Shown here: one piece after another, positions 53,955 through 57,391 of the stretch | Layout of the letters: every line of letters begins with the position of its first letter | Position numbering within the stretch: the stretch's first letter is position 1 | Source: Aureispira sp. CCB-QB1 | GTDB taxonomy: Bacteria; Bacteroidota; Bacteroidia; Chitinophagales; Saprospiraceae | Direction: 5' to 3' | NCBI RefSeq assembly: GCF_000724545.1 | Contig: NZ_JHBV01000016.1 | Span: forward strand, 248,001-312,000 | Length of the DNA stretch: 64,000 bases | The notes under the pieces: generated by a model | What the model was told of the DNA's origin: nothing | Seen by the model: the letters and a program-made list of their open reading frames with translations, nothing else | Database searches by the model: none | Program-made: the position numbers and the translations under genes

Positions 53955-53985
53955 TTGCTTTTTTAATATAGCTATCCTATATTCG
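53955..53985 (+). promoter_or_regulatory. Probable promoter of the phhA leader transcript
   Basis: TTG (53955-53957), a 20-nt spacer and TATATTCG (53978-53985, one mismatch to TAnnTTTG) would start transcription near 53992, about 26 nt before the leader-peptide ATG. Confidence 0.5.
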
Positions 53986-54017: not shown

Positions 54018-54107
54018 ATGAGTACAGCAACTAAATATTTTAACACATCTTACTACTACTGGTATTTTATACTTAGTGGACAGGATGTCTTATGCCGTTG
54101 CTTGTAA
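54018..54107 (+). CDS. Tyr-rich leader peptide of an aromatic amino-acid attenuator
   Basis: The 29-codon ORF (ATG 54018, TAA 54105) encodes MSTATKYFNTSYYYWYFILS and nine more residues. Six aromatic codons in a row, Tyr-Tyr-Tyr-Trp-Tyr-Phe, occupy 54051-54068; in total there are five Tyr, two Phe and one Trp. It lies directly before mutually exclusive hairpins and upstream of phenylalanine 4-hydroxylase, the gene that makes Tyr from Phe. It is too short to be a functional protein; its translation is the sensor. Tyr shortage would stall the ribosome on the Tyr codons. Confidence 0.85.
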   Translation: MSTATKYFNTSYYYWYFILSGQDVLCRCL

Positions 54108-54168
54108 CTTCTACGATAACGATATAGAATTTAAAATCCTAGTCCACTTTTGGGCTAGGATTTTTTTT
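54075..54168 (+). promoter_or_regulatory. Transcription attenuator: antiterminator and terminator
   Basis: The terminator is a 14-bp stem (54133-54146 with 54151-54164, loop CTTT) that runs into eight Ts (54161-54168). The segment AGTGGACAGGAT (54075-54086), inside the leader ORF just after the aromatic codons, pairs with ATCCTAGTCCACT (54136-54148) as 12 bp with one bulged A, which would consume the left arm of the terminator. A ribosome stalled on 54051-54068 leaves 54075-54086 mostly exposed; one that reaches the stop codon covers or passes it, so the terminator forms. Confidence 0.85.
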
Positions 54169-54245: not shown

Positions 54246-55028
54246 ATGAGACAAGAGTATGATAAATACACTGCCGAGCACCACCAAGTATGGGCATTGA
54301 TGTACCAAGAACAAATGGATATTTTAACATCTAGAGCTACAAAAACCTATCTTAAGGGCATCGAAACAGTTCAATTTGAAGAGGACAAAATCCCGCGTTT
54401 CACGATAGTAAATAAAGCCTTAAAGACATTGACAGGCTGGCAAGTTTATGCTGTTCCTGGAATTATTGACAACAAGCCTTTCTTTGAATTATTAGCACAA
54501 AAACAATTTCCTGCTACAACTTGGATGCGGAGTCTGGCACAACTAAAATACATTGAAGAACCAGATATGTTTCACGATGTTTTTGGTCATGTTCCGCTAT
54601 TGAGTGAACCCTACTTTGCTGGATTTCTAAACGGATTAAGTCAAATAGCTCTAGAGTTTATCGAATCTCCCACTGCGGTTGAATTAATGGCGAGAATTTA
54701 TTGGTATACGATTGAGTTTGGACTGATAAAGGAAGAGGAAACGATTAAGATCTATGGTGCAGGTATTTTATCCTCTCCTGGTGAATCCGTTTACTCCCTA
54801 AGCGATCAACCCGAGCATTTTGCTTTTGATTTGGACAAAATATTAGGTACTCCTTACATTAAAGATAAGTTTCAAGCACAGTACTTCATTACAGAATCTT
54901 ACCAACAACTATACAACAGTTTGCCTCAACTAAAAGAACGAATCAAACAAGCAGTTGAGTCCAATTTAGTTGTTGAAGATGGTCAAGCATTTAATTTTGA
55001 AGATTTGCTCGTCACTATAAATAACTAA
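54246..55028 (+). CDS. phhA: Phenylalanine 4-monooxygenase (phenylalanine hydroxylase)
   Basis: The enzyme hydroxylates Phe to Tyr with O2 and a pterin cofactor. The 260-residue single-domain protein has all three iron ligands of aromatic amino-acid hydroxylases: His110 and His115 (EPDMFHDVFGHVPLL) and Glu157 (YWYTIEFGLI), plus GAGILSSPGESVYSL near the active site. It lacks the ACT regulatory domain of the animal enzyme, as is usual in bacteria. It is controlled by the Tyr-rich attenuator upstream and is followed by aroB and aroC, so it appears to be anabolic, supplying tyrosine (inference). A strong hairpin after the gene separates it from aroB. Confidence 0.95.
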   Translation: MRQEYDKYTAEHHQVWALMYQEQMDILTSRATKTYLKGIETVQFEEDKIPRFTIVNKALKTLTGWQVYAVPGIIDNKPFFELLAQKQFPATTWMRSLAQLKYIEEPDMFHDVFGHVPLLSEPYFAGFLNGLSQIALEFIESPTAVELMARIYWYTIEFGLIKEEETIKIYGAGILSSPGESVYSLSDQPEHFAFDLDKILGTPYIKDKFQAQYFITESYQQLYNSLPQLKERIKQAVESNLVVEDGQAFNFEDLLVTINN

Positions 55029-55030
55029 AG

Positions 55031-55075
55031 TAATCCGATTGCACTATCTAATGAAATGCTAGTGTAATCGGATTC
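55031..55075 (+). terminator. Hairpin after phhA
   Basis: TAATCCGATTGCACTA (55031-55046) pairs with TAGTGTAATCGGATT (55060-55074) over 15 bp with one G-T pair. No T-run follows, so termination may be partial, allowing some read-through into aroB. Confidence 0.6.
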
Positions 55076-55250
55076 GTTATTTGGTAACAATGACGTTGTT
55101 TAAAATTAAGTAAGCACTCAAAATTATTATTCCACATTTTCCCAACCTTTTGAGTTAATCTTGCTTCAAAACCCAATACAAAATATAATTTAAGCTAATT
55201 CTGCTTTCTTGCTCGCTAAGAATTGGTTTTATGAGAAATAAAAACACCGT

Positions 55251-56306
55251 ATGATACAACTACAGGATTATTCTATTCATTTTCAAGATAAAAATTTTGC
55301 GCTCCTAAGAGAACAACTAACAACAAATGCTTACTCTAAAATTTTTGTCTTAGTAGACAGCAATACCAACCGACACTGTTTGCCCATTCTTCAGAATGCT
55401 CTAGAAGGGATAGAATTGCATATTATTACCATACAAGCTGGAGAAATTCACAAAAATATAGAAACCTGCCAATTCATTTGGAAAGCTCTGATGCAACAAA
55501 AAGCAGATCGAAAGTCTGTTCTTTTGAACTTAGGAGGGGGTGTTATTGGCGACATGGGAGGCTTTTGCGCCAGTACTTTCAAGCGTGGAATTGATTTTAT
55601 ACAAATTCCAACCACATTGTTAGCGCAAGTAGATGCGTCTATTGGTGGTAAGTTAGGGGTTGATTTTGAATTGGTCAAAAATAGTATTGGTTTATTTAAC
55701 AATCCCCAAGCCGTCTATTTGTATACCGATTTTTTTAAAACATTACCCAAAAACGAACTGTATAGTGGTTATGCAGAAGTTGTCAAACATACTTTGATTC
55801 AGAATAAAGAGGCATTTCTACAACTCAATCAAATGGATTGCATAGAGCATTCTGATTGGGAATCGTTGGTAAAAGATTCTTTGTATATTAAGAAATCCAT
55901 TGTTGAACAAGACCCTTTCGAGGAAAACATTCGCAAAAGCCTTAACTTTGGGCACACCATTGGGCATGCCATCGAAAGTTTGAGCTGGGAAACAGATGCA
56001 CCTTTACTACATGGAGAAGCCGTTGCAATTGGTATGATTGCAGAATGCTATTTGAGCTACAAACTACTTGGTTTGCCCCAACATGAATTGGATTTGATTG
56101 GGCAATATTTAAAATCATTATACGCTAAATTTGACCTCCATAAAATTCATTCCACCAATATTATCACCCTCATTCAACAAGATAAAAAAAACGAACACCA
56201 ACAAATCTGTTTCACTTTATTGAATAAGATTGGTGCATTCAAAATCAACATACATGCTTCTGAGGCACTTATTTTAGAATCCTTAGCGTATTATAATAAT
56301 CTATAA
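55251..56306 (+). CDS. aroB: 3-dehydroquinate synthase
   Basis: The enzyme converts DAHP to 3-dehydroquinate, the second shikimate-pathway step, using NAD+ and a divalent metal. The 351-residue protein has [40 protein letters not shown] and the metal-ligand motifs [19 protein letters not shown] and [10 protein letters not shown]. aroC starts 5 bp after its stop codon, so the two form an operon. Confidence 0.96.
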
Positions 56307-56311
56307 AAATC

Positions 56312-57391
56312 ATGGCAGGCAACACATTTGGAAAAATATTTAAAATCACCACCTTTGGAGAATCACATGGAACAGGTATTGGAGTTGTTATTGATGGCTG
56401 TCCAGCAGGAATAGAATTAAATTTAGCTTATATTCAACACCAGCTCAATCGCCGCAAACCAGGACAATCCAAAATCGTCACACAACGCAAAGAGGCAGAC
56501 GAATTTGAAATTCTATCGGGCGTATTTGAAGGCAAAACAACGGGCACCCCCTTAACACTATTCATTGCCAATACTAATCATAAATCAAAGGATTACGATC
56601 ATATCAAAGATAAACTTCGTCCCTCTCATGCCGACTTTACTTATCGACAAAAATACGTCAATAGAGATTACCGTGGTGGTGGTCGTGCCTCTGCTCGTGA
56701 GACCGCAGCAAGAGTAGCAGCAGGGGCCATCGCTCAACAAATTTTGGAACAAAAAGGTATCGTCATTACCGCTTATGTCAGCCAAGTTGGTCCTTTGGAA
56801 ATACAGCAACCTAAAGAAGAATTGGATTTTTCGCTAATTGAAGCAACCCCTGTACGTTGCCCAGATATTTCAAGAGCAAAAGAAATGGAGGCGTACATTA
56901 AGCAAATAAAAAAAGAAGGCGATACAACAGGCGGTGTCGTTAGTTGCGTCATCCAAGGTTGCCCAGTCGGATTGGGTGAACCTATTTTTGACCGTTTGCA
57001 TGCTGAACTAGGCAAAGCTATGTTAAGTATCAATGCTTGCAAAGGCTTTCAATATGGTTCTGGATTTGACGGGGTTTGTATGAGAGGTTCGGAACACAAT
57101 GATATTTTTATCAATGATAATGGTATAATTAAAACCACTAGTAATTACTCTGGCGGGATTCAGGGTGGTATTTCTAATGGTATGGATATTTATTTTAGAA
57201 CTGCTTTCAAACCTGTTGCAACTATCATGCGCCCTCAACCTTCTGTTGATGTTAATGGCAATTCGGTTACTGTAACGGGCAAAGGTCGACACGATCCATG
57301 TGTGGTACCAAGAGCAGTCCCGATTGTAGAGAGTATGGCAGCACTAGTTTTGATAGATTATTATTTATTAGCGAGGACAGATCACTTCTAA
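56312..57391 (+). CDS. aroC: Chorismate synthase
   Basis: The enzyme makes chorismate from EPSP in the last common step of aromatic biosynthesis, with reduced FMN. The 359-residue protein shows the family signatures [18 protein letters not shown] near the N-terminus, [20 protein letters not shown], and [17 protein letters not shown] near the C-terminus. It follows aroB by 5 bp. Together with the upstream hydroxylase it links general chorismate supply to tyrosine formation. Confidence 0.97.

Follow-up and report, generated by a model that had tools for sequence, protein, structure and literature searches.

The trp, pheA and his leaders of Escherichia coli each contain a short open reading frame (ORF) with regulatory codons, and their RNA can adopt mutually exclusive 1:2, 2:3 and 3:4 pairings. 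Comparative surveys of attenuators have reportedly been made by Vitreschak, Lopatovskaya and Merino. In the available portions of the papers cited here, leader-peptide attenuation is inferred, from strong clues, upstream of amino-acid biosynthesis operons in Flavobacterium psychrophilum (PMC9723704), and putative attenuators taken from a prediction database are placed ahead of tyrA operons (PMC1173090). Phenylalanine hydroxylase (PAH) has been proposed as a route to tyrosine on the basis of fitness data from Dyella japonica and Echinicola vietnamensis, in a paper that concerns GapMind (PMC7311316). Because an anabolic PAH was thus proposed earlier, including in one species of Bacteroidota, the anabolic role is not itself new (PMC7311316).

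The locus described here lies in a window (the whole 64,000-nucleotide stretch of DNA that was analysed) from the 7.4-Mb genome of Aureispira sp. CCB-QB1 (G000), and its features are listed in Table 1. The leader ORF upstream of phhA, MSTATKYFNTSYYYWYFILSGQDVLCRCL, encodes five Tyr, two Phe and one Trp residues, with the run Tyr-Tyr-Tyr-Trp-Tyr-Phe at 54051-54068 and Tyr codons at 54036, 54051, 54054, 54057 and 54063. An earlier reading of this DNA from its letters alone (the sequence-only reading) had described a 29-codon ORF of this composition, and every coordinate that it gave is correct. It had also described a 14-bp terminator with eight Ts (54133-54168) and a 12-bp pairing of 54075-54086 with 54136-54148. 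Both were confirmed, with two refinements: four of the eight Ts lie inside the terminator stem, since the T run occupies 54161-54168 and the stem 54133-54164, and the duplex formed by AGTGGACAGGAT contains a single bulged A. The terminator has an energy of -18.5 kcal/mol. While the ORF, terminator and antiterminator of the proposed layout all stand, the sequence-only reading overlooked both the aroB and aroC genes downstream and a 1:2 hairpin, whose 5' arm contains the YYYWY codons and whose 3' arm contains the antiterminator strand. Because the Tyr codons and the antiterminator strand pair in this hairpin, the window leader has the full trp/phe-type layout. The antiterminator also encloses another hairpin (54087-54130), within which the leader ORF ends.

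Table 1. Features of the phhA leader and the genes that follow it, in coordinates of the window.
Feature	Coordinates	Strand	Details
Candidate Bacteroidota-type promoter	53955..53985	+	TTG 53955-53957, 20 nt, TATATTCG 53978-53985
Leader peptide ORF MSTATKYFNTSYYYWYFILSGQDVLCRCL	54018..54107	+	29 codons, ATG to TAA
Strand 1, bears YYYWY codons	54045..54065	+	pairs with 54069-54088; MFE of untranslated leader, 18 pairs
Strand 2, antiterminator 5' strand AGTGGACAGGAT	54075..54086	+	12 bp with 54136-54148
Antiterminator-enclosed hairpin	54087..54130	+	54087-54106 with 54112-54130; fold of 54075-54149, window only
Intrinsic terminator, strands 3:4	54133..54168	+	14 bp, 54133-54146 / 54151-54164
phhA, phenylalanine 4-monooxygenase	54246..55028	+	TIGR01267 275.4 bits, curated cut-off 264.75; PF00351
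phhA-aroB spacer	55029..55250	+	222 nt, 15-bp hairpin at 55032-55074
aroB, 3-dehydroquinate synthase	55251..56306	+	TIGR01357 347.6 bits, cut-off 305
aroC, chorismate synthase	56312..57391	+	TIGR00033 470.9 bits, cut-off 212.2

We consider it very probable that a trp/phe-type, ribosome-mediated transcription attenuator sensing charged tRNA-Tyr controls phhA. From the layout we infer how leader translation, ribosome stalling, timing and termination would combine into a response to Tyr in vivo. With Tyr in ample supply, the ribosome on the leader would pass the Tyr codons and cover strand 2, so that the terminator at 54133-54168 could form; if the leader were not translated at all, the 1:2 hairpin would hold strand 2 and the terminator would again form. 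Transcription would then end before phhA. When Tyr is scarce, the ribosome would stall on Tyr-Tyr-Tyr-Trp-Tyr, covering strand 1 and releasing strand 2 (54075-54086) ahead of it, and the freed strand 2 would capture the 5' arm of the terminator before the 3' arm is made. The resulting read-through would reach phhA, whose product would then convert Phe to Tyr.

Folding of partial transcripts gave both states of the switch. The RNA at 54075-54149, as it would be with its 5' side covered by a stalled ribosome, forms the 12-bp antiterminator around the second hairpin (-23.5 kcal/mol), and the RNA left free from 54118 onwards by a ribosome at the stop codon folds into the terminator. At equilibrium, however, the completed terminator outcompetes the antiterminator in the segment 54075-54172, which is a point against our preferred explanation. 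A switch whose terminator is favoured as soon as the 3' arm has been made must be kinetic; classical attenuators are likewise kinetic switches.

Besides the window genome, five genomes of the genus have counterparts of the Tyr-rich leader (G001, G003, G004, G005 and G007), at the loci L003, L004, L005, L006 and L183, the last of these belonging to G004. Pair counts in the six genus sequences were made with registers set by hand, because MAFFT misplaced the antiterminator of L006. In this alignment 66 of the 72 antiterminator pairs are standard, three of the six broken cells fall in the last pair, and two-sided compensatory changes occur at three pair positions (in three, one and one sequences). 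The conservation of a Tyr-rich ORF with its alternative pairing, and the compensatory changes in relatives, support the trp/phe-type attenuator that the sequence-only reading had put forward. One congener, G002 (L007), counts against it: phhA is present there and tyrA was not detected, but the gene has no leader. In G006, which is 88% complete, the relatives search gave no match to phhA.

The order of genes downstream extends the argument. At five congener loci (L003, L004, L005, L006 and L008), aroB starts at most about 15 nt from where the phhA match ends, and aroC comes next, so the attenuator probably serves phhA-aroB-aroC in these species. At the leaderless locus L007, aroB begins about 50 nt past phhA, and no aroC turned up in the stretch examined. 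The 222-nt spacer with its hairpin may partly separate aroB and aroC from the attenuator in the window species.

We collected phhA upstream regions from a relatives search of 100 genomes, from a set of 80 named genome records that is biased, since the records were chosen as the most similar among 592 (16 of the 80 are from outside Bacteroidota), and from 395 evenly sampled genomes (the even sample), 69 of which encode PhhA at E <= 1e-30. Without duplicates the scanned set comprised 154 upstream regions from Bacteroidota and 15 from other organisms. Six exact duplicates were left out, together with L040 and L122 (duplicates of L019 and L026); L008 and L105 were left out of the leader scan because their upstream DNA was too short. 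The near-duplicate leaderless pairs L144/L148, L162/L164 and L168/L170 were kept, L129 has only about 200 nt of upstream sequence, and L183 (G004) lies outside the 154. The leader rule called for an ORF of 10-60 codons that has at least three Tyr within a stretch of 8 codons and whose end falls 0-60 nt upstream of a terminator; the spacing between ORF and terminator was limited by two scan rules, to at most 110 and 60 nt.

A Tyr-rich leader ORF with a terminator is present in 34 of the 154 distinct Bacteroidota phhA upstream regions, 33 of them under the leader rule and the 34th (L073) from a slightly different scan rule, and in none of the 15 from outside Bacteroidota. The carriers include Roseivirga, Fulvivirga, Marivirga, Litoribacter, Hymenobacter and Pontibacter, among others. 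Eight further loci, five of them in Algoriphagus, have leaders in which Tyr, Phe and His codons are mixed (PTPRT[YF]xHH), and no leader was detected in 112 of the 154 Bacteroidota regions. Within the even sample, a leader was found in 10 of the 17 phhA-containing genomes of the class (8 Tyr-rich and 2 mixed) and in 0 of the 52 outside it.

Leaders of the mixed, Cyclobacteriaceae type (PTPRT[YF]xHHS...) were seen at L041, L047, L052, L053, L055, L058, L116, L117 and L118; L116 falls inside the Tyr-rich set and the other eight outside. One may speculate that queuosine is the signal for mixed Tyr/His leaders. In Anditalea andensis (L074), we read by eye a frame with four consecutive His codons before the phhA terminator, about 225-165 nt upstream of phhA, which is possibly a His-tuned version of the switch.

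The attenuator could be real and yet respond to a signal broader than Tyr, such as Phe, Trp or total aromatic charging, with His in some lineages. The window leader itself includes two codons for Phe and one for Trp; Tyr, Phe and His are mixed in the eight leaders outside the Tyr-rich set as well as in L116, and the His-rich frame of L074 points the same way. ORFs with at least three His in 8 codons beside a terminator were found in 13 of the 154 phhA upstream regions, as against 2 of 1452 real windows taken from the regions flanking 64 loci, a number that fits the mixed Tyr/Phe/His leaders. Over the last 30 residues of 33 Tyr leaders, however, Tyr makes up 18.8% of residues, compared with 3.8% for Phe, 1.3% for Trp and 3.9% for His, and unbroken runs of 4-7 Tyr are common. 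We regard a broader signal as rather unlikely.

The absence of tyrA from the genome had been named beforehand as a check on the attenuator, and indeed no tyrA was detected with the Pfam domain PDH_N (PF02153) in G000-G006, which include the window genome; G007 has a weak match under the cut-off. Across the whole set, tyrA was undetected in 26 of the 34 genomes with a Tyr leader and in 31 of the 112 leaderless genomes (p = 5.6e-7, ignoring relatedness), and restriction to the class leaves 26 of 34 against 20 of 60 (p = 8.6e-5, again ignoring relatedness). Fourteen genomes whose matches score above the cut-off but no higher than about 66 bits were counted here as tyrA-positive; recounting them as tyrA-negative gives p = 3.3e-4. 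Within the window's order the difference (11/11 versus 12/18) is not significant (p = 0.058), and among the 17 genomes that the class contributes to the even sample, with the two mixed-leader genomes excluded, it is 4/8 versus 0/7 (p = 0.077). Genomes with mixed leaders have tyrA in all seven searchable cases of the eight (the L052 genome was excluded).

The lack of tyrA and the order phhA-aroB-aroC together support an anabolic hydroxylase that is opened by Tyr shortage, and conversion of Phe to Tyr by phhA is likely to be the route to Tyr in this genome, in which tyrA is not detectable. Two results count against this explanation: the 31 leaderless phhA genomes likewise have no detected tyrA, and pheA (prephenate dehydratase, PDT) was found in only 3 of the 9 genomes of the genus. 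Despite this sparse occurrence of PDT, the congeners checked retain both aroB and aroC.

It is improbable, in our estimation, that phhA is instead chiefly catabolic (Phe to Tyr to homogentisate), with a leader that provides only a floor of expression. All 9 of the 9 genomes searched in the genus encode a 4-hydroxyphenylpyruvate dioxygenase (HPPD) that scores above its curated cut-off; Tyr degradation is therefore possible, and a catabolic use of phhA is compatible with the data. Opening on Tyr shortage would, however, be the wrong sign for a catabolic gene, and the lack of a tyrA over the cut-off in G000-G007 and the phhA-aroB-aroC order in five congeners also argue against a chiefly catabolic role. 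The sequence-only reading had called the hydroxylase an anabolic source of tyrosine and not a catabolic enzyme; the first half of that claim is supported by tyrA absence and by the aroB-aroC order, whereas the second went too far in view of the HPPD genes.

The idea that Tyr leaders are confined to phhA was put to the test at tyrA loci: in a broader scan than that of phhA, run without shuffled controls, 4 of 26 had a Tyr-rich ORF beside a terminator within 1.5 kb upstream. The scan covered 26 of the 33 class genomes with tyrA over the cut-off. The sole close case is L204, where a Tyr-rich leader ORF and terminator lie about 170 nt upstream of tyrA; at L195 and L201 they lie about 1.3 kb before it, and the match at L184 looks like chance.

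Both alternative pairings were examined at 41 leader loci, with L035 (a near-duplicate of L034) left out of the two pairing tests and of the residue count. Strand 2 was searched for from 6 nt after the densest 5-codon run or, in mixed leaders, after the T[YF]xHHS motif. The mean energy of the antiterminator duplex is -13.45 kcal/mol for a locus's own strands and -10.13 kcal/mol for swapped ones, and that of the 1:2 duplex is -11.54 for own strands and -9.25 for permuted ones; in each case 0 of 20000 permutations were as strong, although the permutation tests, like the Fisher tests, ignore the relatedness of the loci. Compared with shuffled versions of strand 2, the antiterminator reaches z < -2 at only 24 of the 41 loci. 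The weakest antiterminators are those of L069, L073, L089 and L090, and the best duplex of L005 is out of register with those of its congeners.

In the minimum free energy (MFE) structure of the untranslated leader, the terminator is present at 41 of 41 loci and strand 2 is paired upstream at 39 (the exceptions are L005 and L036). The antiterminator starts 6-20 nt past the control-codon run at 38 of the 41 loci, the floor of 6 nt being set by construction of the search, which places it near the expected edge of a stalled ribosome. In L026 and L096 it extends over the stop codon, and the gap between leader stop codon and terminator measures 24-43 nt across the 42 leader loci.

Control by a binding protein, a T-box or a riboswitch could also account for a terminator and an antiterminator taken by themselves, and the small ORF would then be incidental. 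No Rfam family reached its gathering score in the window, however, and the leader gave only sub-threshold matches. The Tyr-rich ORF moreover recurs at 34 of 154 loci, with a distance to the terminator of 24-43 nt, and strand 1 overlaps the control codons in the window, where this overlap was checked. Control of this kind is accordingly very unlikely.

Shuffling the 154 upstream regions gave no match to the leader rule in any of three shuffles, and 1 of the 1452 real flank windows passed it, compared with 33 of 154 phhA upstream regions. At a stricter threshold of at least four Tyr the counts are 28/154 and 0/1452. Because flank windows lie mostly within genes, we limited a further comparison to windows that hold a terminator, and found the leader in 33 of 62 phhA upstream regions and 1 of 263 flank windows. 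A previous version of the scan, which covered 156 upstream regions, found nothing on the reverse strand, nor in any of five shuffles. When other residues were counted at the threshold of at least four, Leu gave 11 matches among the 154 phhA upstream regions and Ile gave 4, which we attribute to TAT runs read in other frames. Although short ORFs and terminators each occur often, a chance pairing of a Tyr-rich frame with an unrelated terminator is already refuted by these shuffles and flank windows and by the conservation and compensatory changes.

A candidate promoter precedes the window leader (Table 1). Its box, TATATTCG, has one mismatch to TAnnTTTG, which we take to be the consensus of the Bacteroidota promoter box. 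An exact TACATTTG is present upstream of the leader in L004 and L005, and was seen in L183 too. Among the 42 leader loci, 12 have an exact TAnnTTTG box, compared with 5-6% of background windows, and 35 have a box with at most one mismatch, compared with 38-52% of 80-nt background windows. At 20 of the 42 loci, a box with at most one mismatch ends 4-7 nt before the leader ATG, and eight of these boxes are exact (L027, L038, L039, L062, L075, L087, L119 and L138), so the leader mRNA there may be nearly leaderless. The distance from box to leader ATG is greater in the window, at 32 nt.

Whether the pattern is wider is a question on which we are evenly divided: a Bacteroidia-wide, Tyr-sensing attenuator may follow whichever gene supplies Tyr, which would be phhA mostly where tyrA has been lost and occasionally tyrA itself. 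Such an attenuator would mark anabolic hydroxylases, and its leader mRNA would perhaps be nearly leaderless in many lineages. The leader is a candidate sequence marker for hydroxylases that make Tyr and do not only degrade Phe, a distinction that the gene name cannot settle. It would also tie regulation to a pathway swap, in which the route from chorismate to Tyr is replaced by one from Phe to Tyr, as in animals.

Ribosome-mediated attenuation is known and an anabolic PAH has been proposed before; we found no description of a Tyr-specific attenuator on phhA. Among the matches listed, no title or beginning of an abstract names a phhA attenuator, and a prior mention is possible, for example in surveys or supplements. 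The attenuation proposed in F. psychrophilum belongs to the same phylum and mechanism class as the phhA leader, but phenylalanine and tyrosine are absent from the main text of that paper, and no phhA attenuator is named in its available portion (PMC9723704). The PAH of Dyella and Echinicola shares the anabolic role proposed here for phhA, with no regulation described in the part of the paper available (PMC7311316). The tyrA-operon attenuators resemble the phhA leader in that attenuation is proposed for genes of the Tyr pathway; they differ in that they concern tyrA, and the phhA regulators in the available part of that paper are PhhR/TyrR and an AsnC-family protein (PMC1173090).

To these the phhA leader adds a Tyr-specific attenuator of defined three-strand design that recurs in one bacterial class. 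Like attenuators of the E. coli type, it combines a leader ORF bearing a run of regulatory codons, mutually exclusive pairings, and a terminator with a T run before a biosynthetic gene. Unlike them, its codons are those for Tyr, its phylum is Bacteroidota, and the enzyme that it targets, phenylalanine hydroxylase, depends on oxygen and pterin.
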